A stretch of 64,000 nt of DNA from Mytilus galloprovincialis (taxonomy: Eukaryota; Mollusca; Bivalvia; Mytilida; Mytilidae). This document shows positions 4,201 through 61,876 of this stretch, piece by piece. Location of the stretch: contig NC_134846.1 of assembly GCF_965363235.1 (NCBI RefSeq), positions 59,695,121 to 59,759,120 of the forward strand, read 5' to 3'. Position 1 is the first letter of the stretch. The number at the start of each line of letters is the position of its first letter. The notes under the pieces were generated by a model. That model did no database searches, was not told the DNA's origin, and saw only the letters and a program-made list of their open reading frames with translations. The translations under genes and the position numbers were made by a program.

Positions 4201-7200
4201 ATTGTTAGATATAAGAAAAAAAAGTTTTATGATTGTCAATGAGACATCCATCCACCACACTACAAAAAAATAGGGATATAAACTAACGCAAGTCTCCAAT
4301 GATGAGCAAAACTGATATGAACCATATTCTTAAAAGGCACAGAAGTAGCAAAACATGAATGTTCTAACAATGGAACATATATAAAAACCATGAATTATAA
4401 ATATAAAAAGTTATCGGTACAATTTTCATGTTTTTGCATAAATTAAGTTCTTTATCAAACTATATATACAGCTAATGTTTGAAATTTGGAAGACTTTCCA
4501 GGGTTCTCGTTAAGACGCGTATACGCATCCTGGACGCATGGAAATCGAGCTGGACACATCATTTTAGAAACCCGTGAGTCCCTGGGACGTGTTTTTATAC
4601 GACCGCAAATTTTGAAAAAATTTTCGTCGTATATTGCTATCACGTTGGCGTCTGCGTCGTCGTCGTCGTCGTCGTCGTCGTCCGGCGTCCGAATACTTTT
4701 AGTTTTCGCACTCTAACTTTAGTAAAAGTGAATAGAAATCTATGAAATTTTAACACAAGGTTTATGACCATAAAAGGAAGGTTGGTATTGATTTTGGGAG
4801 TTTTGGTCCCAACATTTTAGGAATAAGGGGCCAAAAAGGGCCCAAATAAGCATTTTCTTGGTTTTCACACCATAACTTTAGTTTAAGTTAATAGAAATCT
4901 ATGAAATTTTGACGCAAGGTTTATGACCACAAAAGAAAGATTGGGATTGATTTTGGGAGTTTTGGTTTCAATAGTTTAGGAATAAGGGGCCAATAAAGGG
5001 CCCAAATAAGCATTTTTCTTGGTTTTTGCACAATAACCTTAGGTTAAGTAAATGGAAATCTATGAAATTTAAACACAATGTTTATGACCACAAAAGGAAG
5101 GTTGGTATTTATTTTGGGAGTTTAGGACCCAACAGATTAGGAATTAGGGGCCAAAAAGGGACCCAAATAAGCATTTTTCTTGGTTTTCGCACTATAATGT
5201 TAGTATAAGTAAATACAAATCTATGAAATTTAAACACAAGGCTTATGACCATAAAAGGAAGGTTGGTATTGATTTTGGGAGTTTTGGTCCCAACAGTTTA
5301 GGAAAAAGGGGCCCAAAGGGTCCAAAATTAAACTTTGTTTGATTTCATCAAAATTGAATAATTGGGGTTCTTTGATATGCCGAATCTAACTGTATATGTA
5401 GATTCTCAACTTTTGGTCCCGTTTTCAAATTGGTCTACATTAAGGTCCAAAGGGTCCAAAATTAAACTTAGTTTGATTTTGACAAAAAATGAATCGGTTG
5501 GGTTCTTTGATATGTTGAATCTAAAAATGTACTTAGATTCTTGATTATTGAAGTTTTTTTGGTCCAGTTTTCAAATTGGTCTACATTAAGGTCCAAAGGG
5601 TCCAAAATTAAACTTTGTTTGATTTCATCAAAAATTGAATCCTTGGGGTTCTTTGATATGCCAAATCTAACTGTGTATGTAGATTCTTCATTTTTGGTCC
5701 TGTTTTCAAATTTCAAATTCTACATTAAAGTCCAAAGGGTCCAAAATTAAACTAAGTTTGATTTTAACAAAAATTGAATTCTTGGGCCTCTTTGATATGC
5801 TGAATCTAAACATGTACTTAGATTTTTGATTATGGGCCCAGTTTTCAAGTTGGTCCAAATCAGGATCTAAAATTATTATATTAAGTATTGTGCAATAGCA
5901 AGTCTTTTCAATTGCACAGTATTGTGCAATGGCAAGAAATATCTAATTGCACAATATTGTGAAATAGCAAATTTTTTTTAAATTAGAGTTATCTTTCTTT
6001 GTCCAGAATAGTAAGCAAGAAATATCCTATTTGTGCAATAGCAAGAATTTTTTTTAATTGGAGTTATCTTTCTTTGTCCAGAATCAACTTAAATCTTTGT
6101 TATATACAATATACAATGTATATACACTTTTTACTACCAACTGATAAATTTAAATAATCTTTACCATTCAGTGATAACAAGCAGTTTTTTTACATCTTAA
6201 TATTTTATGATGTATTTAAATGAGTAGTTATTGTTGCAAACTCCATTAGAAATTTGAATTGATATCAGTTTTGAAAAAGGGAAACGGGGATGTGAAAAAA
6301 AAGGGGGGGGGGGGTTAAATTTTTCTCATTTCAGATTTCATAAATAAAAAGAAAATTTCTTCAAACATTTTTTTGAGAGGATTAATATTCAACAGCATAG
6401 TGATTTGCTCAAAGGCAAAAAAAACCTTTTAAGTTCATTAGACCACATTCATTCTGTGTCAGAAACCTATGCTGTGTCAACTATTTAATTTTAGATTTAA
6501 AAAGTTTGAAGAAGAAATCTTTAATTGATTTGTAAAATCTTGGCATTTGTTTTGTGTAAAAAAAAACCATGTAATGTCAAAAATTTGATCACAATCCAAA
6601 TTCAGAGCTGTATCATGCTTGAATGTTTTGTCCATACTTGCCCCAACTGTTCAGGGTTCGACCTCTGCGGTCGTATAAAGCTGCGCCCTGCGGAGCACCT
6701 GGTTATTGTATCCCCAGAGTTCCAGAAACATCGTTTTGCCTAGAAGATTTATGATTTGACATTGTTTTGAGCCATTGTTTTGACAAGAAACTAAATCAGA
6801 AGTCAAAAATGATGGGATGTGTTGCAGTGTAGATCAATTTTTTTGACAGCTGATAGATTTATAATTTACATTGTCTGCATGGTTGAACAAGCCAATGAAC
6901 GATCATGACCCATTTGTCAAATAAAAAAAGTTAAAATTGTTTGCAAAAACTATTTTTTTAAATACAAATGCTTGACTGTACCTTTAATGGAATGAATATA
7001 AATCCAAATAAATTATTAAAAGCAGAATAATCCAGAAATTAAATGAATTCCAAGACCACATGTTTTCTTTTGTTTTTGGCGGGGAAAATACTTGGGGAAT
7101 CCCCAAAATAACTGACAACCCTGTCTGGATATTTAAAGACATTTAAAATAAACAGCTGATATAGCAGTGCCATGAGAATAGTTAAACTTGGTACAGTAAA

Positions 7201-10200
7201 ACCTGTATAAACCGGCCGGCTACGGGACTATTAAAAAGGGCCGGTTTGGACGGTGAGCCGGTTTATTCAGGTTTCCGTTTTGACCGGAAGTTAATGACTT
7301 GTGATGTCCGATATTTTGTATGTAAAAGTTCTTTCTGATTGTAAATTATATCTGATAAATTAAAATACTTCACTTCGTTTTTCATTGTTTGCATTTGCAT
7401 CATAATGCTCGCGTTTTTTTTGGATTGTCAGACGAGAGTTCGATTTACTTCCATGATCATTAATTTGAAATGTTGGAATGGCCGATTAAAAAGCCAGAAT
7501 ATTATCAAACGTAATTTCATCACTATCGAAACGTTGTCGTACAGCGTACAATACCCATTGATTGTTGTCATCTGGGTGTTTTTCATTATCAAGGTCATTT
7601 GTTTAGGGGCTTACAACAGGGAATCCGGGACTTCGAATCACGATGTAGATTTCTTACTCAGCGATTTAAATTTGTTTATCCAAGTTACAATAATTTCACT
7701 CCAAGATATATTCGTTGTGTCTTTCCGTTTAATTGACACGTTTATAATGTTTTAATAAATAATACAGCTCACTACTGTACGATTGTAAGTTCACAGTTTA
7801 ACACCTGACTAATTGATTACCTGAAAAGCCATATTGTATAAACAAAGAAATATGTTTTGATTGCATATCGATCATTGAAATTAATTAGACAAACCGGTTT
7901 TGACAGGTAATAATTAATGTAATTAAGAGTATTGGAACTTCATAATTAGACCGGAATTCGGAATACACAGGGTCCGGTTTACAAAGGGTATTTTAACATA
8001 GACTTTGAAAGGGAAAACTTGGGACTTTCATTTTCGACCGGAATGGACAGGAAACCGGTTTATTCAGGGTCCGGTTTAATCAGGTTTGACTGTATATATA
8101 AATCAATCTATACCAATTTAATTGGGAAAAGGGTGTAAAGGGGACTTCAGGGGTTAATTTGTAAAGTTTTTTTTGTTTGTCATTTTAAATTTTGGCAACT
8201 AAAAATCTCCATGCAGATTCTTTTACTGAGTTTATTATTAAATAATACATTCATATTTAAAAAAAAAAAAAAAAACTAAAACCCTACTTGTCGCCCTGAT
8301 CTTTTTTATGGAACTCTGGCTTTGGCAAACCAACATTTTTTCAATGTGGCCCCACATCAAGAATTGATAGACCCAGAAAGAAGTCTGTTACATGTATATA
8401 TTTTGAACAATAACTATTTAGATATCATAATTTTTAACCGGATTTTTGTGACAAAAATGTCGGTTATTGATTTGGGGATGTACGGCGGGCGGCCGGGCGG
8501 TCGGGCGGGCGGGCGGCAATCAAATGTTGTCCGTGCATTAACTCATGAACCGTTCAACCAAAGCTTTTAAAATTTTAATATGTTATTACTGACAACTATA
8601 CGAAGGTCAAGTTCAATAATGGCGATTTTGACTTTTACCGTTCAGGAGTTATGGTTCTTGAAAGGCAGCAATCAAATGTTGTCCGTGCATTAACTCATGA
8701 ACCATTCAACCAAAGCTTTTAAAATTTTAATATGTTATTACTGACAACTATACGGAGGTCAAGTTCAATAATGGCGATTTTGACTTTTACCGTTCAGGAG
8801 TTATGGTTCTTGAAAGATTGAAAAATGGAGTTTTCAGTCGTGTCCGTGCATTTACTCATGAACTGTTTTACCAAAGCTTCCCAAATTTTAATATGTTGTT
8901 ACTGATGACAGAATGGAGGTCAAGTTCAATAATGACGATTTTGACTTTTACCGTTCAGGAGTTATGGTTCTTGAAAGATTGAAAAATGGAGTTTCCAGTC
9001 GTGTCCGTGCATTTATGCATGAATTGTTCTACCAAAGCTTCCGAAATTTTAATATGCTGTTACTGATGACAAAATGGAGGTCAAGTTCAATAATGACGAT
9101 TTTGACTTTTACCGTTCAGGAGTTATGGTTCTTGAAAGATTGAAAAATGGTGTTTCCCGTCGTGTCCGTGCATTTTCTCATGAACCATTCAACCAAAGCT
9201 TTTGAAATTTTAATATGTTGTTACTGATGACAAAATAGAGGTCAAGTTCAATAATGACGATTTTGACTTTTACCGTTCAGGAGTTATGGTTCTTGAAAGA
9301 TTGAAAAATGGTGTTTCCCGTCGTGTCCGTGCATTTTCTCATGAACCATTCAACCAAAGCTTTTGAAATTTTAATATGTTGTTACTGATGACAAAATAGA
9401 GGTCAAGTTCCATAATGACGATTTTGACTTTTACTGTTCAGGAGTTATGGTTCTTAAAAGATCGTAAAATGGCGTTTCCATTCACGTTGTTGCATTTACT
9501 CATGAACCATTCAATCTAAGCTTTTCAAATATTATTATTTCAAAATGTTGATACTGATGACAAAATGGAGGTCAAATTTGATATTGATGATTTTCACTTT
9601 CACCATTCATCAGTAATGGTTCTTGTGATATTGCCAGGACACAAATAAATGTAAATAAATCCGGTTTGCTGTCGTTGTGACAGCCTCTTGTTATTGATAT
9701 AATAAAAACTAACAATCCAACATGCATCATTTAAGTTGTATTTCGTCATATTTCATTATATTATGACACAAAAAATTACATGCATCCTGGACTCATCAAA
9801 ATCTGTTGGGACTCACCATTTCTAAAAGTGATGAGTCCCAGGACTCGCCATGAAAAATTCCTAGTGAGAACCCTGCTTTCATTTTTTGATGGTCATTCCA
9901 TTTATATGGATGTAGATGTGTGGATATGTAGGAGCTTAAATTTCTACCCCACAACAAGATACTGGTTGTTGGTAAATTGTGGTTGGATGTCTAATTAATG
10001 AGTGTGAAATTACAATGTGGAAAATGAATAAAAAATCAATTCCTATCCTCCCATGTCCATTTTAACAGAATAGCCTGTTGTATTAATATTTAAACTGAAA
10101 CAAACATGCTAATATTTTTTTTAGAAAGAAGCTGTTCTTTTAAAAGAGTTATAATTTTTGTCTCTAATTTTTTCAGATGCTGGAAAATCAACTATTGGAG

Positions 10201-13200
10201 GTCATTTGATGTAAGTTTGATAATCTTGATACCACAGTACAATTCACAAAAATTATTCAGTAAAAAATCCCTATTTTGAGTGTCAGATTAACCCTGAAAT
10301 AATTTGTATATATATTCAATAGATAATCTATGACTATTTGTGTAAATTTTAGCATTTTCGCTTTCACCAGCTATTATTAAGTTTAACTTTGGTAACAGAG
10401 TGTTTTTTAACTGGGAGAACTTGTGTGTATGTTGTATTTGTTTAAATTGCCTTCTGTAAAGCCGCACAAGTTAATTGGCCTAGATATCTTTGTGGTCTAT
10501 TTCTACCTGTGCAAGACACACAAGTGTTTCTGCATTCAATTTTCAGCTGCACTATTATTACTAACAACAATGAGATTTAATTTTTTAGCTCACCTGACCT
10601 GAAAGGTCAAGTGAGCTTTTCTCATCACTTGGCGTCCGTCGTCCGTAAACTTTTACAAAAATCTTCTCCTCTGAAACTACTTGGCCACAATCATCCTTGG
10701 GGTATTTAGTTTAAAAAATGTGTCCGATGACCTGGCCATCAAACCAAGATGACCACCATGGCTAGAAATAGAACACAGAGGTAAAATGTATATTTTGGTT
10801 TATATCTTTAAAACCAAAGCATTTAGAGCAAATCTGACGGGGTAAAATTGTTGATCAGGTGAATTTCTATTTGCCATGAAATTTTCAGACGAATCGGACA
10901 ACCTGTTGTTGGGTTGCTGCCCCTGAATTGGTAATTTTAAGAAAAATTTGCAGTTTTTGGTTATTATCTTGAATACTATTATAGATAGAGATAAACTGTA
11001 AACAGCAATAATGTTCAGCAAAATAAGACCTACAAATAAGTCAACATGACCAAAACTCAGTCAACCCCTTAAGGAGTTATTGTCCTTTAAAGTCAATTTA
11101 ATAACTTTTTCCTCATTTTTTGTAACTTGTACAAAAATCTTCTTCTCTGAAACTACTGGACCAAATTTAAACTAACTTGGCCACAATTGTAATTGTGGTA
11201 CAGTCGAACCTTGTGTCGCAGTCGAAGGGACCGGACCAAAGTATTCGACTCATCCGAGGTCGAGTGTATCGTCATAAATTTGAATGCATGAAATACGGTA
11301 TGAGATTTGTGTAAACTAGATAAAATGAACAGTGTGCCTTTTCCATTCAATCTCCATTTTTGGTCCTTCGTAATAATTAAAAACACAAGTACAGATACAA
11401 ATCATGCGAAAATAAAATCAATAGTCTACACAAATAGTTACAAAGGTCAGTCGCTATAAATTATGAAATCACGCGCGGCACGAAATAAGTTCTGAACGGT
11501 CTCTAATGAGGTCGTCTGCTTTACATTAATTTATCATGAATTGATTATAATTGTCCTATTCCTTTTATCTATTGTAATTAATGAGTTTTAAATCTAACGA
11601 TTCATTTAATCTGGGCTTGGGTCATTTAAATTCGTTTCGTTTTTATCTCAGGTGAAAAATGTTCAACACACTAACATTCCGCTTGAACGATCAACAAAGG
11701 TGTTAATTAGCGGCCACCATAAACATGTCATTTTAAATGTTATACAAACAAGTATGTTTACTCAGCTTTAATCTCTTTTGAAAATGATTAGTTGACATAA
11801 GAAATACATCCGACTTAAATTTTTATCATCATGATCATAAGGTCTGCATCTTTCGAAAATTGTTACTTTCGAAGTCGAGACATTGGGGTCAATTTACATT
11901 AATTTTACTTCGACGGGACTATAAAATTTACTTGACTTAACTGAGTATTCGAATCAACCGAGTTTGACTCATCAGAGGTAATTATGCATTGATCAAACAG
12001 GAATTTTACCAGGACCGCGAAATTACCTCGACTCATCCGAGTTTTCGACACAACCGAGTTCGACACAACGAGGTTCGACTGTATATAGTTTAATAATATC
12101 TCAAAAGTACAGGAATGATAATACACCATGAAACTATTAACTCCCTTAAAGGAAAATTGACAGCTTTCTGTGTAAACTAGATGTCTCAATCCTACTTTTA
12201 TCAACCCATTGGTTCAAATTAGACACTCATATCTCAGATTCTAAGTGACCTACATTTCATTTCTATTTCACACCATACTTGCTTCAATTATTTTACATAG
12301 GAGTTATCAAACCCGCTTGTAGACTAGTTTATTATTTGCCATTTTACTTGGAAAATTGGAAATGGGTACAATCAGCAAGAACCAAACATTAACTATAATG
12401 CCTAATAAGGTAATATGTCATTCTGTAATTAGAATCTTTTTCATTGGGCTTTTACAAAATTAATTGTATTGGGGGGGGGTTATATTATGATCATAATGAT
12501 TACAGAATAATACCAATGTTGGAAAATTTTGATCCACTCCCATCTTGTGATTGTAAACCCGCACTGAAAAGTATAGACCAATTTTTATCCAGGCTTCAAA
12601 GTTGAAGTCAAATTTAATTTCAGTTAAATGTTTAATATAGATAATTCTTTATTGTTAATAAGGAGCATTCTGTACAAAATCTGGTCATTTGAGTAACTTA
12701 TAAATTGTTTTGCAGTGATTATTAAAACACTAATGACTTTATTTTGATATTCAATATTGACCACATACATTAAACAGTCACACATAAATAGGTACAAAAT
12801 TTTAATTATATTATACAATTTTATGGTGTTGTTCATTGTTGGAATGAGATATGCATCTGTCTCATATTTTATTTTATTTCAGTTTATGAACAAGAGATTT
12901 TTAAAAGTTGAAACAGTTAATTAATCTCAGAATTTTATATCAAAAAAATATTTATAGGTATCTGACTGGTATGGTTGATAAAAGAACTCTGGAAAAATAT
13001 GAAAGGGAAGCAAAGGAGAAAAACAGAGAAACATGGTTTGTACAAAAAATTACTATTAATAGTACATTTACATAAAAATTAACATTCAGTTGTTACTAAA
13101 GTAAAAGCTGAAATTTTGGTATGAACAACATGTGTTCACAAAAATATAGTATGATTATACATTATGTATTGGCTGCAATATTGCTGATTGCAAAAGAAAT

Positions 13201-27037: not shown

Positions 27038-29274
27038 TTTATACGACCGCAAAAATTTTAATTTTTTGGTCGTATATTGCTATCACGTTGGCGTCGTCGT
27101 CCTGCGTCGTCGTCGTCCGAATACTTTTAGTTTTCGCACTCTAACTTTAGTAAAAGTGAATAGAAATCAATGAAATTTTAACACAAGGTTTATGACCACA
27201 AAAGGAAGGTTGGGATTGATTTTGGGAGTTTTGGTCCCAACATTTTAGGAATTAGGGGCCAAAAAGGGCTCAAATAAGCATTTTCTTGGTTTTCGCACTA
27301 TAACTTTAGTTTAAGTGAATAGAAATCTATGAAATTTTGACACAAGGTTTATGACCACAAAAGGAAGGTTGGGATTGATTTTGGGAGTTTTGGTTCCAAC
27401 AGTTTAGGAATTAAGGGCCAAAAAAGGGCCCAAATAAGCATTATTCTTGGTTTTCGCGCAATAACTTTAGTATAAGTAAATAGAAATCAATGAAATTTTA
27501 ACACAAGGTTTATGACCACAAAAGGAAGGTTGGGATTGATTTTTGGAGTTGAGGTCAACAGTTTATGAATTAGGGGCCAAAAAGGGACCCAAATAAGCAT
27601 TATTTTTGGTTTTTGCACCATAACTTTAGTATAAGTAAATAGAAATCTTTGAAATTTAAACACAAGGTTTATGACCATAAAAGGAAGGTTGGGTTTGATT
27701 TTGGGAGTTTTGGTCCTAACAGTTTAGGAATAAGGGGCCCAAAGGGTCCAAAATTGAACTTTGTGTGATTTCATCAAAAATTGAATAATTGGGGTTCTTT
27801 GATATGCCGAATCTAACTATGTATGTAGATTCTTAATTTTTGGTCCCGTTTTCAAATTGGTCTACATTAAGGTCCAAAGGGTCCAAAATTAAACTTAGTT
27901 TGATTTTAACAAAAATTGAATCCTTGGGGTTCTTTGATATGCTGAATTTAAAAATGTACTTAGATTTTTAATTATTGGCCTAGTTTTCAAGTTGTTCCAA
28001 ATGGGGGTCCAAAATTAAACTTTCTTTGATTTCATCAAAAATTGAATAAATGGGTTCTTTGATATGCCAAATCTAACTGTGTATGTAGATTCTTAATTTT
28101 TGGTCCAGTTTTCAAATTGGTCTACATTAAGGTCCAAAGGGTCCAAAATTAAACTAAGTTTGATTTTAACAAAAATTAAATTCTTGGGCTTATTTGATAT
28201 GCTTTATCTAAATATGTACTTTGATTTTTGATTATGGGCCCAGTTTTCAAGTTGGTCCAAATCAGGATTCCATATCAAGTATTGTGCAATAGCAAGAAAT
28301 TTTCAATTGCACAGTATTGCACAATAGCAAGAAATATCTAATTGCACAATATTGTGCAATAGCAATTAATTTTCAATTGGAGTTATCTTTCTTTGTATAG
28401 AATAGTAGTTGATAATATATGTTGGAAATTTGCCAGACATGACTATGATGTCATTTTCTATTTTTATTTGCCAATAACTTTATGTAAATAACTTCATTGG
28501 AAATTTGCCAATATAAAATGTTGCTGATGAAGCTTTTTTTCCTTATCTTATCTAAAATGTTTTTAGATAATGTATGTTGGACATTTGCCAGACATGACTA
28601 TGATGTCATTTTCTATTTTTATTTGCCAATAACTTTATGTAAATAACTTCATTGGAAATTTGCCAATATAAAATGTTGCTGATGAAGTTTTTTTTATTGT
28701 TTTATACAATAAACAATGTATATTCACTTTTACTACCAACCAATCTTTACCATTCAGTGATAACAAGCACTTTATTTTACATTTTAATATTTTATGATGT
28801 ATTTAAAAGAGTAGCTATTGTTGCAAACTCCATTAGAAATTTGAATTGATATCAGTTTTGGAAAAAGGGAAACGGGATGTGAAAAAAAAAAGGGGGGAGG
28901 GGTTTAAATTTTTCTCATTTCAGATTTCATAAATAAAAAGAAAATTTCTTCAAACATTTTTTTGAGAGGATTAATATTCAACAGCATAGTGAATTGCTCA
29001 AAGGCAAAAAAAAAACTTTTAAGTTCATTAGACCACATTCATTCTGTGTCAACTATTTAGTTTTAGATTTAAAAAGTTTGAAGAAGAAATCTTTAATTGA
29101 TTTGTAAAATCTTGACATTTGTTTTGTGTAAAAAAAAACCATGTAATGTCAAAAATTTGATCACAATCCAAATTCAGAGCTGTATCACGCTTGAATGTTT
29201 TGTCCATACTTGCCCCAACTGTTCAGGGTTCGACCTCTGCGGTCGTATAAAGCTGCGCCCTGCGGAGCACCTGG
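27038..29274 (+). mobile_element. HINE-like element, family A (copy A3, nested inside A2)
   Basis: This is a full-length copy, from the TTTATACGACCGCA end through GCTGCGCCCTGCGGAGC to CTGG at 29271-29274. It splits A2 inside 'cttaatttttggtcccg', a stretch still intact in A3 itself (27833-27849). Removing A3 restores that sequence if insertion was between two T residues, with no target duplication. It carries its own tandem duplication (28411-28690). Confidence 0.85.
28411..28690 (+). repeat. Tandem duplication, about 156-bp unit, inside A3
   Basis: The block from 'gataatatatgttggaaatt' to 'tgttgctgatgaag' is repeated almost exactly, with unit starts near 28411 and 28567. Other family A copies lack it, so it arose in this copy. 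Confidence 0.85.
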
Positions 29275-36112: not shown

Positions 36113-37135
36113 CCAGATGCCCTGCAGGGCGCAGCTTTATACGACCGCAGAGGTCAAACCTGAACAGTTGGGGCAAGTATGGACACAACATTTAAGCTTG
36201 ATGCAGCTCTGAATTTAGATTGTGCTTAAATAGCTAACACAACAAAGGTTTCTGACACAGAATGAATGTGGTCTAAGAATTTAAACTTAAAAACTTAAAA
36301 ATTTTAAATCGGACATTTACCTATTATGGTCCAATATCCAAAATCTAAATACATGGTTAGATTCAGCATATTATAGAAACCCAAGAATTCACTTTTTGAT
36401 AAAATCAAATAATGTTCAATTTTAGACCCTTTAGACCTCCATGTGGAACAAAGTTTAAATTTGGACCCTGATTTGGACCAACTTGACAACTGGGCCCATA
36501 ATCAAAAATCTAAGTACCGGTATATGTTTAGTTCAGCATATCAAAGAACCCCAAGAATTCAATTTTTGTTAAAATCTAACTTCGTTTAATTTTGGACCCT
36601 TTTGGTCCCTTATTCATAAACTGTTGGGACCAAAACTATCAAAATCAATCCCAACCTTCCTTTTGTGGTCATAAACCTTGTGTTAAAATTTCATAGATTT
36701 CTATTTACTTATACTAAAGTTATTGTGCAAAAACCAAGAAAAATGCTTATTTGGGACCTTTTTTTGGCCCCTAATTCCTAAACTGTTGGGACCAAAACTC
36801 CCAAAATCAATCCCAACCACCTTCCTTTTGTGGTCATAAACCATATGTTAAAATTTCATAGATTTCTGTTTACTTATACTAAAGTTATTGAGCGAAAACC
36901 AAGAAAAATGCTTATTTAGGCCCTTTTTGGCCCCTAATTTTTAAACTGTTGGGACCAAAACTCCTAAAATCAATCCCAACCTCCCTTTTATGGTCATAAA
37001 CCTTGTTTTTAAATTTCATAGATTTCTATTTACTTTTACTAAAGTTATAGTGCGAAAACCAAATGTCTTCGGACGACAACGACAACGTCGTACCAATATA
37101 CGACCAAAAATTTTTTAATTCTTGAGGTCGTATAA
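36113..37135 (-). mobile_element. HINE-like element, family A (copy A7), internally shortened
   Basis: In minus orientation it starts at 37135 with TTATACGACC and ends at 36113 with the 3' hairpin and CTGG, followed by TT. It keeps two 145-bp modules and three 165-bp modules but lacks the 36-bp units. The stretches on either side (35623-36112, 37136-37734) show nothing recognisable. Confidence 0.8.
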
Positions 37136-42601: not shown

Positions 42602-42604
42602 TTA

Positions 42605-50130: not shown

Positions 50131-53100
50131 ATGGCTGTTTTGAACAAATTAGAACGCCTTGATTTTCATGTATATAATCAAAATGAGTTATACATAATTT
50201 ATTCCTGTCAATTTTGGTTAGAGGAGTAGTCCAAATAATTATGACGTCTTAAAAGGCTATTATATTTTTTTCTTTGACGCGTTACATCAACGGTGTCAAA
50301 GCAAAAAATTTAAAATAGCCTTCCAAGATGTCATAATAATTTGGACTACTCCTCCCCTAACCAATAAAATCTAGGATCTGTCCATGTCTTGATTGGACGA
50401 TGGTTGGTATATTTCGTTGGACACTTAAATTCGTTGTTTAAGTCATCCACGAAAATTGGCACCCCACGAATAAAAGTACTTTCACAGTATTTAAAATTTC
50501 TTGGCTGAAATTTAAAATTACAGCTGAATATTGCAGCTTGAACAGTTGTTTACGATCTGTGATTAGGCTAGATAATTATGGGTTTAGCTTATTCTTGCAT
50601 AATTTTACAGGTCAAACAGATTACAGAAGCATTAAAGAAATTGACCAAGACCTCAGATGAACTGTTGGATGAAGCAGCAGATATAAATCTCCAGTTTACA
50701 GTAAAGAAAATTCCTAAGCTTACAAACAAAACCATTAAAATGTAAGAAAATTATAACGTATTTATTTAAACAAACACTGTGGCATTTATGATAAAATTTA
50801 TACGACTGCAAAAACAATTTGTGGTCGTATATTGGTATGACGTTGGCGTCGTCGTTGTCGTCCGAAGACACATTGGTTTTCGCACTATAACTGTAGTATA
50901 AGTAAATAGAAATCTATGAAATTTAAACACAAGGTTAATGATCACAAAAGGAAGGTTGGGATTGATTTTGGGAGTTTTGGTCCCAACAGTTTAGGAATAA
51001 GGGGTCAAAAAGGGACCCAAATAAGCATTTTTCTTGTTTTTCGCACCATTACTTTAGTATAAGTAAATAGAAATCTATGAAATTTAAACACAAGGTTTAT
51101 GACCATAAAGGAAGGTTGGGATTGATTTTGGGAGTTTTTGTCCCAACAGTTTAGGAATTAGGGGCCCAAAGGGTTCAAAATTAAACTTTGTTTGATTTCA
51201 TCAAAAATTGAATAATTGGGGTTCTTTGATATGCCGAATCTAACTGTGTATGTAGATTCTTAATTTTTGGTCCTGTTTTCAAATTGGTCTACATCAAGGT
51301 CCAAAGGGTCCAAAAATAAACTTAGTTTGATTTGAACAAAAATTGAATTCTTGGGGTTCTTTGATAAGCTGAATCTAAACATGTACTTAGATTTTTGATT
51401 ATGGGCCCAGTTTTCAAGTTGGTCCAAATCGGGGTCCAAAATTAAACTTTGTTTGATTTCAACAAAAAAGAATCCTTGGGGTTCTTTGATATGCTGAATC
51501 TAAACATGTATTAAGATTTTTGCTTATGGGGCCAGTTTTCAAGTTGGTCCAAATCGTGGTCCAAAATTAAACTTTGTTTGATATCAACAAAAATTGAATC
51601 CTTGGGGTTCTTTGATATGCTGAATCTGAACATGTATTTAGATTTTTGATTAAAGGCCCTGTTTTCAAGTTGGTCTAAATTGTGGTCCAAAATTAAACTG
51701 TTTGATTTCAACAAAAATTGAATATATGGGGTTCTTTGATATATGCTGAATCTAACCATGTATTTAGATTTTTGATATTTGGGCCCGGTTATCATTGAGG
51801 TCTAAAGGGTCCAAAATTGAACTTTATTTGATTTTCACCAAAAATTGAATTCTTGGGGTTCTTTGATATGCTGAATCTAACCATGTATTTAGATTTTGGA
51901 TATTGGACCATAATAGGTAAATTTCCAATTTAAAATTTTTAAGTTTTTAAGTTTAAGTTCTTAGACCACATTCATTCTGTGTCAGAAACCTATGTTGTGT
52001 CAACTATTTAATCACAATCCAAATTCAGAGCTGTATCAAGCTTGAATGTTGTGTCTAAACTTGCCCCGACTGTTCAGGGTTCGAACTCTGCTGTCATATA
52101 AAGCTGCGCCCTGCAGAGCATCTGGTTAATATGTGTTCTGTTTCCTACTTAATTAAGTAATTCTGGAATAGCATTGTCATTAGTTTGCCATTCAACTGGT
52201 ACTTTGATTGATTAATAAAATTACCTGAATCGATCTCCAGTTCGTTGTTGATATTTTACAAAAATATTATTTGTTATCATCAGGCCTCGACAATAACGCT
52301 TGTACGATTGTCCAGTACCAGAGGCAAAAAAGGTCGGACAAGTAAAAGCTGTATTAAGCTTGTCCGTTGAGTCTAGTGCAATTATTCTGCAGAAAATAAA
52401 TTTAATCCAATTTTGATGAACAAAGTAATTATAAACAAAAAACAAGAAATTCTGAAAACAAATATTAATTTGACATGTTTCTGTATTCTGTTTATTCAAG
52501 TGCAAAACCTTTTTCTTCGACATGTTTGCAATCGATAATTTTTAACTGGTTCTTTGTCAAGTACTTTTTAACAGGTAAAAGGTATACTATTCTCGGAAAC
52601 CAGTCTTACTAATCTGAATCAATGATGCGCTTTGTAGATAAGGTAACTTTACAGGACAGTAAGTTTGTCACCTCGAAAGATTCAAGACAAATCAGTACCT
52701 CATTTTGATATCTTATTCTGTTCCTTATAATAAATACCATTCCCGTAATTTTTTCACAAAAATATTTTTTTTTAATAGAAATTTTGTGGACAAGTAACAA
52801 ATTTTGGTATGTACTTGTCCTACAGGACAAGTTGAAATAAAAAGTTATTGTAGAGGCCTGATCATTTATTTATATATTGAACAACTATAAATTTTCTCTT
52901 GATATGAAACGATGTGTACAGTGCTCTGATAGAAACAGGTAAATATTATAAAGTATTAGGTAGTTATTTTGAATGTAGTTGTACATTGTATATGATGAAC
53001 TACTGTTTTTCAGAAAACTACCACATGGATTACATAAAAAGAACACAGAAGTCTGTTTATTTGTTAAAGATGTAAATAAAAAAAGTAGAGAGCATGAACT

Positions 53101-56100
53101 ATCATCAGATCATTTCCAAGATTTACTCAAGAGTAAAGGAGTCACATGTATTTCAGAGGTAACTTCCAACTTTTCTTAAAATTTAAAATCATTATAATAC
53201 ATATAAAAAAGAAGATGTGGGATGTTTGCAACTGAGACATTTCTTCACAAGAGACCAAAATGACACAGGAATTAACAACTAATGGTCGCTTACAGACTGC
53301 AACATGGGCAAAGTCCATACCCCATAGTCAGCATTAAAAGACCCTGATATGACATCTGTAAACAATTTAAACAAGAAAACTAACAGCCAAATTTATGTAG
53401 AAAATAATGAACCAATTACAAATATGAATTTCTGCAACAAATGGCAACCACTAAATTACAGGCTCCTGACTTGGGACAGGCTACATTAAACAACAATCTA
53501 TAATGCATATGATATTAACATTCAATTTTTTTTTTATTAACATTATTATATACATGTATGTCAAATTAGAAGGCATTTGATATTATTGTCTTTTGAGTAC
53601 ATTAACATGTATTACAAATATTTAAGTTTTAAATAATGTTGTTTTTTTATGCCCCACCTACGATAGTAGAGGGGCATTATGTTTTTTGGTCTGTGCCTCC
53701 GTTCGTTCGTCCGTTCGTTCGTCCCGCTTCAGGTTAAAGTTTTTGGTCGAGGTAGTTTTTGATGAAGTTGAAGTCCAATCAATTTGAAACTTAGTACACA
53801 TGTTCCCTATGATATGATCTTTCTAATTTTAATGTCAAATTAAAGTATTGACCCCAATTTCATGGTCCACTGAACAAAAAAGAAGATAGTGTGAAGCTCA
53901 GGTTAAAGTTTTTGGTCAAGGTAGTTTTTGATGAAGTTGAAGTCCAATCAACATGAAACTTAGTACACATGTTAACTATGATATGATCTTTCTAATTTTA
54001 ATGCCAAATTAAAGTATTGACCCCAATTTCACGGTCCAGTGAACATGTAAAATGATAGTGCGAGTGGGGCATCCGTGTACTATGGACACATTCTTGTTCT
54101 CAATGTATCTGAATTTATATAATGTACAAACTCTTGACAATTGATTTCATATATTTTTAGTCTAAGTAATTAAATTAAAACTTGCCCAAAAGGTATAATG
54201 TTGAAAAGACATTGACAAATAACTAACAGGCAATGGACTTATCTTCATATTTTTATATTAATGGAGTAAAAAAGTTGAGCATGACATCATCTGGTTGGAT
54301 TCTCTGCTCACATTTTTAGCTCACCTGGCCTAAAAGGCCAAGTGAGCTTTTCTCATCACTTGGCGTCCGGCGTCCGTCGTCGTCCGTCGTCCGTCGTCGT
54401 CCGTCGTCGTCGTTAACTTTTACAAAAATCTTCTCCTCTGAAACTACTGGGCCAAATTAAACCAAACTTGGCCACAATCATCATTGGGGTATCTAGTTTA
54501 AAAAATGTGTCCGGTGACCCGGCCAACCATCCAAGATGGCCGCCATGGCTAAAAATAGAACATAGGGGTAAAATGCAGTTTTTGGCTTATAACTCAAAAA
54601 CCAAAGCATTTAGAGCAAATCTGACATGGGGTAGAATTGTTAAACAGGTGAAGATCTATCTGCCCTGAAATTTTCAGATGAATCGGATAACCCGTTGTTG
54701 GGTTGCTGCCCCTGAATTAGTAATTTTAAGGAAATTTTGCTGTTTTTGGTTATTATCTTGAATATTATTATAGATAGAGATAAACTATAAACAGTAATAA
54801 TGTTCACCAAAGTAAGATTTACAAATAAGTCAACATGACTGAAATGGTCAGTTGACCCCTTTAGGAGTTATTGCCCTTTATAGTCAATTTTTAACCATTT
54901 TTCGTAAATCTTAGTAATATTTTACAAAAATCTTCTCCTCTGAAACTACTGGGCCAAATTAATCCAAACTTGGCCACAATCATCTTTTAGGTTAGCAGTT
55001 TGAAAAATGTGTCCGGTGACCCGGCCATCAAACCAAGATGGCCGCCATGGCTAAAAATAGAACATGGGGTAAAATGCAGTTTTTGGCTTATAACTCAAAA
55101 CCCAAAGCATTTAGAGCAAATCTGACATGGGGTAAAATTGTTTATCAGTTCAAGATCTATCTGCCCTGAAATTTTCAGATGAATCGGACAACCCGTTGTT
55201 GGGTTGCTGGCCCTGAATTAGTAATTTTAAGGAAAATTTGCTCTTTTTGGTTATTATCTTGAATATTATTATAGATAGAGATAAACTATAAACAGCAATA
55301 ATGTTCACCAAAGTAAGATTTACAAATAAGTCAACATGACTGAAATGGTCAGTTGACCCCTTTAGGAGTTATTGCCCTTTATAGTCAATTTTTAACCATT
55401 TTTCGTAAATCTTAGTAATCTTTTACAAAAATCTTCTCCTCTGAAACTACTTGGCCAAATTAATCCAAACTTGGCCACAATCATCTTTTGGGTTAGTAGT
55501 TTGAAAAATGTGTCCGGTGACCCGGCCATCCAACCAAGATGGCCGCCATGGCTAAAAATAGAACATGGGGTAAAATGCAGTTTTTGGCTTATAACTCAAA
55601 ACCCAAAGCATTTAGAGCAAATCTGACATGGAGTAAAATTGTTTATCAGGTCAACATTTATCTGCTCTGAAATGTTTAGATGAATCGGACAACCTGTTGT
55701 TGGGTTGCTGACCCTGGATTGTTAGTTTTAAGGAAATTTTGCTGTTTTTGGTCATTATCTTGAATATTATTATTGATAGAGATAAACTGTAAACAACAAT
55801 AATGTTCAGCAAAGTAAGATTTACAAATAAGTCAACATGACCGAAATGGTCAATTGACCCCCTTAGGAGTTATTGTTCTTTATAGTCAATTTTTAACAAT
55901 TTTCATAAAATTTGTAAATTTTTACTAACATTTTCCACTGAAACTAATGGGCCAAGTTCATTATAGATAGAGATAATTTTAAGCAGCAAGAATTTCAGTA
56001 AAGTAAGATGTACAAACACATCACCATCACCAAAACACAATTTTGTCATGAATCCATCTGCTTCCTTTAATATTCACATAGACCAAGGTGAGCGACACAG

Positions 56101-59100
56101 GCTCTTTAGAGCCTCTAGTTTATCCACTGATCATTTGAAGTATGCTATGTTATCTCTACATTACAGATTATTCCATTGAAGTCTTTGAAACTAGAATATA
56201 AACCATATGAAGCCAAAAGAAATCTTTCCCAGAATTATGATATGTACCTAGCAGACAGTAGAATTGTCAGATTACTACCATCATTATTAGGCAAAAGTTT
56301 TTATGGGAGAAAAAGGTAACATATATGTTTGTCATGTTCTTGTTACAATTGGTGAAAATACATGTATCATGCAAGTTAAAGTCCATGAGGATTTCAAGAA
56401 ATTTCAATTAAGGGGAAAGATTTTTTTTAAAGCATTTATAAATTTCACAAACTTAATATATCTCTTTTACCTTAAAATCCTACAGACTATAGACTATTCT
56501 TTGACAATGAAAAAAGAAGGTCTATTTAACTTATCAAACTGACTGCCATGGAACAGATTGCATTATAAACAAGTAGTTAAATTATTCCAAATACAAAATG
56601 TTCCTTTGCAGTTTATATATAGTAGAGGGTAACAGTTATGTGATGTTACAGTTAAAATATTAAAGCATGCAATCCAAGAGTTTAAATGCCTTGCTTGCCA
56701 ACTTTGTTTGGTTGTTTGCTCATGCATCGTAATTGAGATTGACACCTAAATTCCATGGAGAGGCGGAGTAAAAGTTTGTTTACTATATAAAAAAGATTTG
56801 ATTGAAGAATGGATATTACATTGGAAACAAGTTTAATATTCATTGACCAATCAAACCTTCGTGTATAGTAAACAGATTGGTATACTCCACCTACCTATTG
56901 AATTAAGGTGTCAATCTTAATTACAATGCATGAGCAATCAACCAAACAAAGTTGGCAAGCAAGGCATTTAAATTCTTGGATTGCATGCTTTAATATTTTA
57001 ACTGTAATGTTTAGTAAGAACTTATATTTATAACAGGCAACCAGTACAAGTGAACTTAGAGGCTAAGGACTTGAATAAAGAAATAACAAATGCTGTAAAT
57101 AACACAAGATGCATTATAACAGGAAAAGGTCCAGTCAGGTAAATAATTTTTTTTTTAAATTTGGTAAAATCATTAAGCCTAAGGGTCCATCATTTTTAGG
57201 GATATCTCGTATGATGTGTTTTGAACATATATTGAGTCACATATTTTCCACATCATAAAAATTGTTTATCTGTGTTTTCAAAATTTATATTTAGATTAAA
57301 AATCTAGATTTTCTACTCTTTGACACAATCCCCATTTCCATTCTCAATTATTAATGAAATATTGCACAAAAAAATCTGCATCAAATGAATACTTATAATT
57401 TAACAATAGAAAATAAATCATTGCATGCCAGTAGAACAATTATTATTCATGTTTTTTCTCTCAAACAATGGTCACAATATTCTGTTACCCTAAATTGTAT
57501 TATTTTCTATTTTCTGATCAGTATGGTAAGAGTGGCCCATTTTGACCAGAAGACACCACATATCGTAGACAATGTCATGTCTGCCTTAGAACAGTTGGTT
57601 TCCGCAATTCCAGGAGGTGCTGTCAACATCAGAAATGTTTACCTTAAAACTAAGGACTCTATGGCTTTACCTTTATACGTGTCAATGGGTAAGTAATCTA
57701 GGTTTATTTAATTTATCCGTGTTTCTCGTTTCTCGTTTTTTTATTGTATATAGATTAGACCGTTGGTTTTCCCATTTGAATGGTTTTACACTAGTAATTT
57801 TGGGGCCCTTTATAGCTTGTTGTTCGGTGTGAGCCAAGGCTCTGTGTTGAAGGCCATACATTGACCTATAATGGTTTACTTTTTTAGCTCACCTGACCTG
57901 AAAGGTCAAGTGAGCTTTTCTCATCACTTGGCGTCCGTCTGAAATTTTCAGACGAATCGGACAACCTGTTGTTGGGTTGCTGCCACTGAATTGGTAATTT
58001 TAAGGAAATTTTGCAGTTTTTTTACGACCGCAAAAATTTTAATTTTTCGACGTATATTGCTATCACGTTGGCGTCGTCGTCTGCGTCGTCGTCGTCCGAG
58101 TACTTTTAGTTTTCGCACTCTAACTTTAGTAAAAGTGAATAGAAATCTATGAAATTTTAACACAAGGTTTATGACCATAAAAGGAAGGTTGGGATTGATT
58201 TTGGGAGTTTTGATCCCAACATTTTAGGAATTAGGGGCCAAAAAGGGCCCAAATAAGCATTTTCTTGGTTTTTGCACAATAACTTAAGTTTAAGTAAATA
58301 GAAATCTATGAAATTTTGACACAAGGTTTATGACCACAAAAGGAAGGTTGGGATTGATTTTGGGAGTTTCGGTTCCAACAGTTTAGGAATTAGGGGCCAA
58401 AAAAGGGCCCAAATAAGCATTATTCTTGGTTTTTGCACAATAACTTTAGTTTAAGTAAACAGAAATCAATGAAATTTAAATATAAGGTTTATGACCACAA
58501 AAGGAAGGTTGGTATTGATTTTGGGAGTTGAGGTCTGAACAGTTTAGGAATAAGGGGCCAAAAAGGGGCCCAAGTAAGCATTATTCTTGGTTTTCGCACC
58601 ATAACTTTAGTTTAAGTAAATAGAAATCTATGAAATTTAAACACAAGGTTTATGACCACTAAAGGAAGGTTGGGTTTGATTTTGGGAGTTTTGGTCCCAA
58701 CAGTTTAGGAAAAAGGGGCCCAAAGGGTCCAAAATTGAACTTAGTTTGATTTCATCAAAAATTGAATAATTGGAGTTCTTTGATATGCCAAATCTTACTG
58801 TGTATGTAGATTCTTAATTTTTAGTCCCGTTTTCAAATTGGTCTACATTAAAGTCCAAAGGGTCCAAAATTAAACTAAGTTTGATTTTAACAAAAATTGA
58901 ATTCTTGAGCTTTTTTGATATGCTGAATCTAAATATGTACTTAGATTTTTGATTATGGGCCCAGTTTTCAAGTTGGTTCAAATCAGGATCCAAAATTATT
59001 ATATTAAGTATTGTGCAATAGCAAGAAATTTTCAATTGCACAGTATTCAGCAATAGCAAGAAATCTTCAGTTGCACAGTATTGTGCAATAGCAAGAAATT

Positions 59101-61876
59101 TTCAATTGCACAGTATTGCGCAATAGCAAGAAATCTTCAATTGCACAGTATTGTGCAATAGCAAATATTTTCAATTGCACAGTATTGCGCAATAGCAAGA
59201 AATATCTATTGCACAATATTGTGCAATAGCAAGAAATTTTCAATTGATTGGAGTTATCTTTCTTTGTCCAGAATAGTAGTTGAATCAACTTAAATCATTG
59301 TTTTATACAATATACAATGTATATTCACTTTTACTACCAACTGATAAATTAAAACAATCTTTACCATTCAGTGATAACAAGCACCTTTTGTTACATTTTA
59401 ATATTTTATGATGTATTTAAATGAGTAGTTATTGTTGCAAACTCCATTAGAAATTTGAATTGAGATCAGTTTTGGAAAAAGGGAAAGGGGGATGTGAAAA
59501 AAAAAATGGGGGGGGGGGTTAAATTTTTCTCATTTCAGATTTCATAAATAAAAAGAAAATTTCTTCAAACATTTTTTTGAGAGGATTTATATTCAACAGC
59601 ATAGTGAATTGCTCAAAGGAAAAAAAAGTATTTTAAGTTCATTAGACCACATTCATTGTGTCAGAAACCTATGCTGTGTCAACTATTTAATCACAATCCA
59701 AATTTAGAGCTGAATCCAGCTTGAATGTTGTGTCCATACTTGCCCCAACCGTTCAGGGTTCAACCTCTGCGGTCGTATAAAGCTGTGCCCTGCGGAGCAT
59801 CTGGTTGGTTATTATCTTGAATACTATTATAGAAAGAGATAAACTGTAAACAGCAATAATGTTCAGCAAAATAAGACCTACAAATAAGTCAACATAACCA
59901 AAATTGTCAGTCAACCCCTAAAGGAGTTATTGCCCTTTATAGTCAATTTTAACAACTCTTTTGTCATTTTTTGTAACTTGTACAAAAATCTTCTTCTCTG
60001 AAACTACCGGGCCAAATTTAAACTAACTTGGCCACAATCATAATTGTGGTTTATAGTTTAAAAAATGTTGCCGCTGACCCCACCTACCAAACAAAATGGC
60101 CGACATGGCAAAAATTAGAACATAGTGGTAAAATGCAGTTTTTGCTTTATATCTTTGAAACTAAGACATTTAGGGCAAATCTTTCAAGATTTAAATGTCC
60201 ACCAGAATAAGATCTATCCCCTCACAAATTTTCAGATGAATCCTACAACTCGTTGTTGGGTTGCTGCCCTAAAATTGGTAATTTTAAGGAAATTTTGCAG
60301 TTTTTGGTTATTATCTTGAATACTATTATAGATAGATATAAACTGTAAACAGCAATAATGTTCAGCAAAGTAAGATCTACAAATAAGTCAACATGACCAA
60401 AATTGTCAGAGAACCCTTAAGGAGTTATTGTCCTTTATAGTCAATATTGAACAACTTTTCGTCATTTTTGTAACTTATACAAAAATCTTCTTTTCTAAAA
60501 CTATGGGCCAAATTTAACCAAACTTGGCCACAATCATTACTAGGGTATCTATTTTAAAAAAATGTCTAATGACCCCGCCTACCAACAAAGATGGCCGACA
60601 TCAGTAAATACAGTAACAGGTGAGCGACACAGGCTCTTGAGAATTTATTTTAAATTGTTATTTTGATGGAGAGTTATCTCATTGGCACTCACACCACATC
60701 TTCCTATATCTATTCAGGCATAACATCTATAGAATAGCGGGGGGGTTAACTATTTCATCAGGTGCTGTCAATATCATTCATAGGTTCAAGGTACAGGTGA
60801 ACTAAATTTTCAATACATGTATTTCAAATGTGTCAGGCAGGTTGATCATTTATTCATTATTGTAAGCCAAACAATCCAAATTGTAGGTATTCTAGAGATG
60901 TTGTACACATAGCAACATTAAAAGTTGATGAAGTTTGCTGTATGTAGAAAAGACCCATATTTACCATAAATTACTGTATTCACAGCATTTAGTTTTAACA
61001 TTCAATCTGTTATGTGATAAAAATACTCATCTTTTTATGGATGTTTTAACTTCTGAAAAAGAATAAATGACGCTTGAAAAATGATGACAATCTGCTGGTA
61101 GTGAGGTCTTCAGTGGTGAATCAATAAATCTGCCTTAGAGGGGCCCTGCTTCAATGATTCCCTACATGTATATAATCAACAAAATTTTTCCCATAACACC
61201 CCCTCCCCTTTCTACGTCCTCCTCTTGATGTAAAATACCCAAGTCAGGAAACTGATGATATAACCACAAGGCCAATTTGAAACAAATTTTGGGCTTTATG
61301 TGCAAATTGAATTATGAAATTTGATTATTTTGTCCTATTTGCATTAAATAATTTCTTCCAGATGCAATGATAGATTCAGATTTTGAAAAATTCTTCTCAG
61401 AAACTATGAATTTTTAGTCCCACATTATATTTAAGTTTTCAATGTTAAAAAGCCACAGAGATCTATCATCTAGGTGAGCAACACATGCTCTTTAGAGCCT
61501 CTAGTTGTCGTTGAGTTGCTTTTCAATTTAAATTTTAATAAACAATATCATCTTTTATTCATAAAGTAGAATAAATATATGTTACATTGTTTATGTATCC
61601 CTTCTGTAAAGCTATATTTATAAGACTTAACTCTTTACAGGATCAATCGAAGAGGTTAACTTGCCTAACACTAAACAGACAAGAAAGGAGTTAGTTGTAG
61701 ACGAAATCACAACAGTAGAGGAAGGCAAGGTGGAGATAACTCCTACAGGATTTGTCACAGTAGTCAAAGAGGGACAAACAGGTGGAAAAATAACATTGAG
61801 AGGAAAAAGATCAGGAAAGAAGAGACTGACTTCAAAGAAAAAGAAAATGAAGTTAAATAAAGCAAAGAAAACATAA
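50131..61876 (+). CDS. RSL1D1: Ribosomal L1 domain-containing protein 1 (nucleolar)
   Basis: RSL1D1 is a nucleolar protein with a ribosomal-L1 fold, linked to ribosome biogenesis and senescence control. Coding exons: 50131-50169, 50611-50741, 53014-53158, 56167-56315, 57037-57138, 57522-57688, 61641-61876. All are GT-AG, and phases close to 322 aa. The L1 domain spans about residues 10-245. Recognisable blocks are VKQITEALKKL, KLPHGLH..VCLFVKD, LEYKPYEAKRNL, MYLADSRIVRLLPSLLGKSF, YGRKR, VRVAHFD, and NVYLKTKDSMALPLYVSMG. The tail ends in a lysine-rich stretch (last 23 residues), fitting a nucleolar signal. Human RSL1D1 is about 490 aa; the long acidic/basic C-terminus is missing here. Exon 1 (MAVLNKLERLDFH) is predicted from frame, donor GTATAT and its fit to the family's N-terminal helix. 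Exons 2-7 are firm. Confidence 0.9.
50214..50364. mobile_element. Foldback element in RSL1D1 intron 1
   Basis: TTGGTTAG, GAGTAGTCCAAAT, ATTATGAC, AAGGCTATT and TTTGAC on the left pair with their complements on the right around GACGCGTTACATC (50277-50289). The arms are about 60 bp with a few mismatches. It is related in core wording to the 37735-37885 and 47288-47447 foldbacks. Confidence 0.75.
50408..50487 (-). mobile_element. Half copy of the CTGTGAAAGTAC MITE
   Basis: On the minus strand it reads CTGTGAAAGTACTTTTATTC, then 'gtggggtgccaattttcgtgg' words and 'tttaagtgtccaacgaaata'. This matches about 85 bases of the left end of 13991-14750. The second terminus is missing. TA follows at 50488. 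Confidence 0.75.
50798..52125 (+). mobile_element. HINE-like element, family A (copy A5)
   Basis: It has the TTATACGACTGCA 5' end, a GTCGTC tract, two 165-bp modules and five 145-bp modules, and lacks the 36-bp units. It ends in a mildly changed 3' hairpin and CTGG at 52122-52125, followed by TT. It occupies most of RSL1D1 intron 2 with the MITE at 52281. Confidence 0.8.
52281..52860. mobile_element. MITE with 18-bp terminal inverted repeats, ATCAT duplication
   Basis: CAGGCCTCGACAATAAC at the left is matched by GTTATTGTAGAGGCCTG at the right (one mismatch). The flanks are ATCAT on both sides (52276-52280, 52861-52865), a 5-bp duplication. The inside has several 'ggacaagt' and 'acttgtcc' words. 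No transposase is present. The superfamily was not resolved. Confidence 0.7.
53195..53520 (+). repeat. Interspersed 'GCCAATGAGACA' family copy, RSL1D1 intron 3
   Basis: AAAAAAGAAGATGTGGGATG, 'cacaagagaccaaaatgaca', 'ccatagtcagcattaaaaga', 'acaagaaaactaacagcc' and 'ttacaggctcctgacttggg' run in the same order as 15145-15440 but cover more of the family. It lacks the final GTGGCGG..TTAAAC block. Confidence 0.75.
53647..54096 (+). mobile_element. HINE-like element, family D
   Basis: It opens with the hairpin ATGCCCC-ACC..AGA-GGGGCAT, then a GTTCGTTCGTCC microsatellite (53699-53724). Two units of about 169 bp follow (marker 'caggttaaagtttttggtc', at 53730 and 53899), then the inverted counterpart GTGGGGCAT, a GTGT..ACAC hairpin and TTCTTG with TT. 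It is a compact example of the shared plan. Confidence 0.75.
54316..56118 (+). mobile_element. HINE-like element, family B (copy B1, most complete)
   Basis: It opens with the hairpin AGCTCACCTGGCC / GGCCAAGTGAGCT, then a (CGTC)n-type tract (54365-54413) and three core modules of about 501 bp (marker CTTCTCCTCTGAAACTAC near 54430, 54931 and 55433) plus a partial one. The 3' side has CAAGGTGAGC (inverted match to GCTCACCTG), the hairpin AGGCTC-TTTA-GAGCCT, then CTAG and TT. It lies in RSL1D1 intron 3. Confidence 0.85.
56647..57006. mobile_element. Foldback MITE in RSL1D1 intron 4, ATGT duplication
   Basis: The outer arms are about 120 bp and near perfect, from TACAGTTAAAATATTAAAGC inward through 'gccttgcttgccaactttg' to 'tgacaccta', and mirrored on the right. 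The spacer is about 120 bp. ATGT flanks both sides (56643-56646, 57007-57010). The element ends 30 bp before exon 5, so its right arm lies across the usual branch-point region. Confidence 0.85.
57892..60640 (+). mobile_element. HINE-like element, family B (copy B3), interrupted by A6
   Basis: It has the 5' hairpin AGCTCACCTGACC / GGTCAAGTGAGCT and 'cacttggcgtccgtc', then a jump into the middle of the core (57938). A6 interrupts it at 58019, and core modules resume at 59805 and run to AACAGGTGAGCGACACAGGC. The final hairpin half is cut near 60640, where an inverted 'GCCAATGAGA' fragment begins. Confidence 0.8.
58020..59804 (+). mobile_element. HINE-like element, family A (copy A6, nested in B3)
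   Basis: All family A parts are present: the 5' end (with one A-to-T change, TTTTACGACCGCA), a GTCGTC tract, 165-bp, 145-bp and 36-bp modules, a G-run, the 3' hairpin and CTGG at 59801-59804 followed by TT. The host gap is within 'gcagtttttggttattatc', intact in B1 at 54735-54752. Confidence 0.85.
60650..60720 (-). repeat. Inverted fragment of the 'GCCAATGAGACA' family
   Basis: On the minus strand it reads AGATATAGGAAGATGTGGTG, then GAGTGCCAATGAGATAACTC. This is the opening of the family seen at 15145. It is truncated within 70 bases. From 60721 to 61440 nothing is assigned. Confidence 0.65.
61470..61504 (+). repeat. 3' end remnant of HINE family B
   Basis: TAGGTGAGCAACACATGCTC followed by TTTAGAGCCTCTAG is the inverted repeat and 3' hairpin of family B, followed by TT. 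It could be the displaced end of B3. It lies 137 bp before the last RSL1D1 exon. Confidence 0.65.

Follow-up and report, generated by a model that had tools for sequence, protein, structure and literature searches.

We asked why five repeat families, here called A to E, are built to one plan within a single 64,000-nucleotide stretch of the Mytilus galloprovincialis genome (C9:59695121-59759120, hereafter the window), and what moves them. Searches covered the window and the whole genome (1.385 Gb in 331 contigs). Taken jointly, the results make it very probable that the five families are HINEs, the non-autonomous passengers of the Rep-helicase rolling-circle transposons called Helentrons, that family B arose by internal deletion from an element like those of a Rep-encoding clade, g12, and that the other families arose likewise.

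The order of parts was the same in A to E: a T-run, a hairpin holding an inverted repeat, a microsatellite, tandem modules, a complementary subterminal repeat and a small hairpin. The 3' terminal motif was CTGG in A, CTAG in B and CTTG in C, D and E, and host T(T) followed it. The common plan that the earlier note had proposed, with 5' hairpin, microsatellite, tandem core, inverted counterpart and 3' hairpin, was thus confirmed, the 3' hairpin being weak in D, and the coordinates that it gave for A, B, C and D were borne out by the sequence.

Family A was represented on the forward strand by a copy at 4594..6702, with a 5' hairpin, a CGT microsatellite, 161-bp and 135-146-bp core modules, 35-bp modules and a 3' end reading ...GCGGTCGTATAAAGCTGCGCCCTGCGGAGCACCTGG^TT. 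A second forward copy (27038..29274) lay inside another A copy, whose parts are 26250-27037 and 29275-30523, and so offered an empty-site comparison for an A insertion. Further A copies were found at 50798..52125 and 58020..59804 on the forward strand, the latter 0.1 kb downstream of a variant B 5' end at 57886, and at 36113..37135 on the reverse strand. The family B element (54316..56118, forward) comprised the hairpin AGCTCACCTGGCC..GGCCAAGTGAGCT, a CGTC microsatellite, three modules of about 500 bp, the 3' subTIR GGTGAGC, a hairpin and CTAG^TT. A B-type 5' hairpin in a compensatory variant, GACCT..AGGTC, was also present at 10587..10617 (forward), with a second one at 57886. Family C (8434..9690, forward) had the hairpin AACCGG..TCGGTT, a GGCG microsatellite, 161-bp modules and a 3' CTTG^TT, while family D (53647..54096, forward) had the hairpin ATGCCCC..GGGGCAT, a CGTTC microsatellite, two 169-bp modules, a weak 3' hairpin and CTTG^TT.

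Family E had been described as probably of the same plan with a worn 3' end. Both points held, with the correction that the element lies on the reverse strand at about 35184..35616, carrying the hairpin TATACCC..GGGTATA, a GTCC microsatellite and two 168-bp modules. A forward-strand reading of E was rejected, as the microsatellite and 5' hairpin sit at its right-hand end. Its 3' end is degraded in the window, but CTTG^TT was intact in 10 out of 10 fetched genome copies, each showing the subterminal repeat, the hairpin region and ...CACTTG before TT; the wear therefore belongs to the window copy. Apart from these elements, the sole listed open reading frame of at least 150 aa in the window (40983-41567, reverse strand) carried a PF06079 Apyrase domain (E 1.6e-32) and is probably an exon of a host nucleotidase gene.

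We tabulated the host bases at the 3' junctions, as the earlier note had suggested, and found mostly TT in all five families. In fetched copies TT followed the 3' motif in 9 of 10 A, 18 of 19 B-type (a count that takes in 8 autonomous g12 ends), 6 of 10 C, 17 of 18 D and 9 of 10 E rows. The C rows without TT were two real copies followed by TC and TA (L093, L095) and rows with GG and CT; genome-wide, 1257 of 1476 C 3' ends were followed by TT, while TT makes up 13.9% in the window. At the other end, the T-run was exactly five long in 6 of 10 A copies (5 of 15 rows having been dropped as opposite-arm or 3'-end matches), 10 of 16 B, 5 of 7 C, 13 of 16 D and 2 of 11 E copies, and in 3580 of 5305 D ends across the genome. 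We rejected a TTTTTA start common to every family: the modal T-run is five in A to D, and E usually has two or three T's.

Empty sites were available for two nested insertions in the same kind of A module, namely A in A (27038-29274) and C in A (L090/L091). In both cases five T's stand at the empty site, and the filled site has five to the left of the insert and two to its right. The two T's gained in both would follow from an element that begins with TT or from duplication of a TT target. In three copies (L087, L092/93, L094/95) the right side has one T and the left still has four or five; these copies disfavour an obligatory 2-bp TT target duplication, and they favour, without proving it, an element start of TT and a T-run of variable length. 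Among the flanks read, the insertion sites gave no consistent target duplication.

In A to E the 5' hairpin outdid every one of its 200 shuffles in folding (z -3.4 to -6.1). Among 200 shuffles of each 3' hairpin, those folding at least as well numbered 12 in A, 2 in B, 0 in C and 6 in E, where the ends of genome copies were folded and not the worn window copy; the weak D hairpin was matched by 47 of 200 and was not significant. Families B to E are high-copy in the genome: a first look gave 8479 candidates for B, 2694 for C, 5084 for D and 2888 for E (40 of each scored), and exact end patterns matched 5684 B-type 3' ends, 5393 B-type 5' ends, 1476 C 3' ends and 5305 D 5' ends. The reversed control patterns of these four ends had 0 matches each genome-wide. 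In the genome search the best B copies were 98-99% identical to the window copy, which suggests recent activity.

The B-type ends also covaried. Among the first 100 of the 5684 3' ends we found three fully paired hairpin forms (97, 2 and 1 copies), the forms being AGGCTCTttAGAGCCT, GGGTCCttGGACCC and one CTCC/GGAG form, and no unpaired hairpin, with a pattern that admitted all sixteen combinations. The 5' hairpin occurred as GGCCC/GGGCC, GACCT/AGGTC and GGCCT/AGGCC; in the first 100 of the 5393 5' ends, 93 were Watson-Crick at both varying pairs, 4 wobble and 3 mismatched, and the two varying pairs were paired in 96 and 97 ends versus 77 and 70 expected. Judged from these sequences, the covariation supports a constraint on the folded strand; it falls short of proof, because related B copies share history.

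A genome search with PF14214 (Helitron_like_N) returned 138 matches, many of them in open frames of 2000-3100 aa. The Rep motif was read in 30 loci as RGSPH in 28 (L011-L038) and RGLPH in 2 (L009, L010); by the diagnostic described in PMC4067079, the S marks Helentrons and the L Helitrons. We defined clade g12 as those Rep matches whose PF14214 profile match starts at 70. Its assignment as Rep rests on a PF14214 match above the cut-off, the RGSPH letters having been read in L011-L038 of other clades. The g12 open reading frames reach 2,665 aa, with a weak endonuclease signal at the C terminus (PF14529 E 3e-4, PF03372 E 1.3e-3, below the Pfam cut-off); an AP-type endonuclease, the domain by which Helentrons are defined, is clear in clade g3. 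One g12 open reading frame contained a 165-bp tandem repeat (L047:2308-3115, 4.8 copies), close in length to the non-coding HINE cores.

The 3' end of g12, GAGCGACACAGGGTCCTTGGACCCTCTAG, is a B-type end with a compensatory change in the hairpin stem, and 173 exact copies occur in the genome. It agrees with the B end over about 37 bp at 89%, and the g12 and B ends, compared at the ends read, both contain AGCTCACCTGGCC and AAGGTGAGCGACACAGG; the published rule for the family is that subTIRs are identical to those of the partner over at least 11 bp. By energy the g12 3' hairpin was not outstanding, as 20 of 200 shuffles folded as well.

We compared the positions of the first 100 of these 173 ends, spanning C1 to C6:87.3 Mb, with the 63 Rep matches on C1-C6, a count from which four fragment rows belonging to these loci had been removed. 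For 16 out of 19 g12 Rep matches, versus 1 out of 44 other Rep matches, a g12-form end lay downstream on the same strand at no more than 30 kb, and the profile match of that single exception starts at position 73. Fourteen of the distances were 6.5-7.8 kb, one was 15.6 and one 23.9 kb. Among these 100 ends, 1 lay upstream of a Rep match within 30 kb and 0 on the opposite strand, and by arithmetic chance alone would give about 0.04 coincidences for 19 matches (173 ends, two strands, 1.385 Gb). Two of the 3 g12 Rep matches without the end were fragments. The remaining 83 of the 100 ends had no Rep match within 30 kb upstream, as expected for passengers. Read by letters, the g12-form end was present in 8 of 11 fetched g12 copies, and in the other three it lay just beyond the fetched stretch, at 7.5, 7.6 and 15.6 kb. 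B-type ends thus flank a Rep-encoding clade, g12.

The core of B was found in the same elements. The B tandem core lay upstream of the g12 open reading frame in 6 of 7 copies examined (L069 lacked it in the fetched stretch), with a period of 502 and 2.9 units in the leader of L066, and the leader sequence common to g12 copies comes after the core. A 3,287-bp match between two g12 copies, on C4 and C12, showed 98.9% identity, with core making up the first ~514 bp. In L052 and L067 the core is preceded by the B 5' end TTTTTAGCTCACCTGGCCCGAAGGGCC. A search allowing 25% mismatch gave no B-type 3' end in the leaders of L051-L053 and L066-L071, over the stretches fetched. Elements bracketed by B-type ends measured about 17.3 kb on C13, about 17.3 kb on C1 (taking the nearest exact same-strand 5' and 3' ends around the Rep match, among the matches listed) and about 15.1 kb on C4. 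The outer limits of the C13 and C1 elements rest on the nearest end, since a second, damaged B-type 5' end lies 0.4 kb further out on C13 (L067) and a further same-strand one 13.5 kb farther out on C1. At L052:4-814 a 38-bp satellite array of 21.6 copies breaks off at the 5' boundary of a g12 Helentron, with CATTTTTTAC as the empty left target.

Read most simply, B derives from a g12-like Helentron by internal deletion. Because the B core already stands in the leader of the autonomous element, the core was probably inherited and not newly captured. The leader cores are ~83-90% like the window B copy in the top matches, so the window B did not arise very recently by deletion from the copies read. 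Such a deletion would have kept the 5' end, the core and the 3' end, and the product would be moved in trans by a g12-like protein. By analogy with the family, the strand may be nicked at the 3' CTNG end and displaced as a single strand, with integration at TT. The Helentron machinery would recognise structure more than one particular sequence: a 5' subterminal repeat folded with its own complement, an inverted copy near the 3' end, the 3' hairpin, C-T-N-G and a T-rich target. Recognition of that kind would explain why A to E share one plan, and A, C, D and E would have the same origin from other Helentron lineages, present or lost. Head-to-tail arrays of B occurred at C13:17821595-17828378, C9:22324235-22329120 and C3:32100717-32103576; in the C13 array the 3' end is repeatedly joined to internal position 586 with a period of about 1220 bp, which could reflect rolling-circle read-through or unequal exchange.

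The other clades had other 3' ends. A further B-type end, GGTGAGCGATTCAGGCTCTTGAGAGCCTCTTG^TT, belongs to clade g8 (two copies); g4 ends in GTAACAG..CTGTTAC..CTTG^T (two copies), g11 in GACGGGCGTATCATGCGC..GCGC..TTCA (two copies), with the terminus TTCA and not CTNG, and g3 in another, different end that is placed less exactly. The ends of A, C, D and E had no match in the clades with readable 3' ends (g12, g8, g4, g11, g3), so that the search for autonomous elements with matching ends, proposed in the earlier note, succeeded for B and came back empty for these four families in the clades examined. Clades g2, g5, g6, g7 and g10, for which the fetched stretches stop short of the 3' end, may include the partners of A, C, D or E.

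Several further arrangements were recorded around these loci. Tandem arrays made up most of the 3' regions of clades g2 and g6 (L042, L073, L074; L112, L113), with a long array of ~185-bp units in g2 and a 34-bp array of up to 82 copies in g6. Copies of A, B and D near Helentron open reading frames in L043, L051, L053 and L065 were considered as Helentron ends and set aside, as they have their own ends, some degraded, and look like separate insertions. An additional HINE family, H (L053:480-1170), had a 5' AGGGTCCCCCC hairpin, a GTCC microsatellite, 169-bp modules, the 3' hairpin GAGATGG..CCATCTC and CTAG^TT. The 5' end of another, G, lay beside an E copy in the right flank of L102 (TTTTATACGCCCGTC..GACGGGACGTAT, with a CCGT-type microsatellite); it opens with the complement of g11 GACGGGCGTAT and so matches the g11 3' subTIR. 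Finally, two g3 Rep matches on one strand of C4 (33807824 and 33813426) are 5.6 kb apart, each in a frame longer than that spacing, and are possibly tandem or overlapping Helentron copies.

We then compared the cores of the families. Sequence comparison showed homology between the 161-bp core of A and that of C: BLAST aligned them at 55% over 361 nt, the majority consensus monomers aligned without gaps over 125 bp with 0 of 2000 shuffles as good, and profile comparison gave 0 of 300 shuffles in both directions. The ends of A and C differ; the statement in the earlier note that the families have no shared sequence is wrong for these cores. The subterminal repeats of A and E, TATACGACCGC and TATACCCCCGC, look alike by eye.

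The A-C homology bears on a wider proposal, that a tandem core of ~160-170 bp is ancestral in bivalve Helentron leaders and that ends and microsatellites diverged faster. Beyond A and C, directed profile tests among families A to E and H gave same-strand signals at 5% or better in 8 of 30 cases (A-C, B-C and A-E both ways, E to D, and H to C), with the opposite-strand median at the floor in 30 of 30. The presence of the B core in the g12 leader points the same way. Against this, the signals other than A-C were weak and carry no correction for multiple tests, and single opposite-strand monomers reached 4.0 bits, in H to C above the best same-strand monomer (3.8). A simpler pairwise test found no general same-strand excess among the cores, and its A-C score (z 3.9) was below that of an opposite-strand pair (z 4.2) and of a control (z 4.9). 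We hold the proposal tentatively, as a possibility that falls short of an even chance, and treat a common ancestral core as a lead from sequence comparison and not as a result. The same doubt attaches to its corollary, that the bivalve HINE core might be an inherited cis-acting part of the Helentron 5' leader from one ancestral module, and not a captured satellite. If this were so, dispersed bivalve satellites would be offcuts of Helentron leaders, and it would be the ends, not the cores, that turn over.

The earlier note had instead suggested that a single transposition machinery captured new cores repeatedly, so that interchangeable ends would have taken up unrelated tandem cores again and again. 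Several families of one plan do occur in one genome, a partner was found for B alone among A to E, and in oyster related flanks carry unrelated cores (group 2 in PMC7492417). Nevertheless, the B core was found inside the leader of B's own autonomous partner, and A and C combine homologous cores with different ends, the reverse of shared ends filled with new cores; together these two observations argue against fresh capture as a general rule. The 3' ends differ among g12/g8, g4, g11 and g3, which leaves the idea of one machinery unsupported. We consider this account improbable as a whole; A, C, D and E may still have acquired their cores by capture.

MITEs, too, have terminal inverted repeats and occur in many copies, and both features are present here, but cut-and-paste MITE-like elements, or a plain dispersed satellite with incidental hairpin ends, are scarcely credible given the asymmetric ends, the lack of a consistent duplication (single-right-T copies keeping four or five T's on the left) and the attachment of B-type ends to Rep proteins. 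The assignment to Helentron-associated elements made in the earlier note was accordingly upheld: the ends and the TT target agree with it, the insertion sites read show no consistent duplication, and a Rep clade with B-type ends is present in the genome.

HINEs with satellite-like cores are abundant in bivalves, and their autonomous partners were left open by the oyster work, as reported in PMC7492417. What is new here is the autonomous driver of B with the core inside it, together with the homology of the A and C cores; titles and abstract openings on Helentrons, HINEs and pearl elements in bivalves, among which subscription papers and preprints were thinly covered, announced no pairing of a HINE with an autonomous Helentron. 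Whether dispersed satellite arrays of bivalves were inherited from Helentron leaders or captured becomes a testable question, and an end variant sitting at a fixed distance behind Rep offers a route to pairing the other families.

The A to E HINEs are a known type of non-autonomous rolling-circle transposon. Helentrons and HINEs of mite, Culex and Drosophila, as described in PMC4067079, likewise have subTIRs, a 3' stem-loop and TT insertion; they carry 2-5 terminal T's, the number varying, and some have tandem repeats. The variable T-run with a TT start resembles the published Culex Helentrons (PMC4067079). The HINEs of these animals are deletion derivatives of their autonomous partners, with identities of 84-99.9% in mite, over 95% in Culex and 98% in Drosophila (PMC4067079), whereas B and g12 share their ends and, with ~83-90% likeness, the core. 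The pearl elements CvE of oyster and MgE of M. galloprovincialis, with a tandem core of ~160 bp, are similar as far as their description in PMC7492417 goes. The closest likeness is to Cg_HINE of Crassostrea gigas, which, according to PMC7492417, has a 5' subTIR with a complementary inverted repeat, a microsatellite, a tandem core of 140-180 bp, a 3' subTIR and palindrome, a T-rich or TT target without target duplication, and several families unrelated in sequence. Its authors report that they could not relate any of them to 10 Repbase autonomous elements (PMC7492417). Family B, unlike Cg_HINE, is linked to an autonomous element, and, in a different species and with the likeness drawn from the published description, its pairing with g12 addresses the partner question from that oyster study (PMC7492417).
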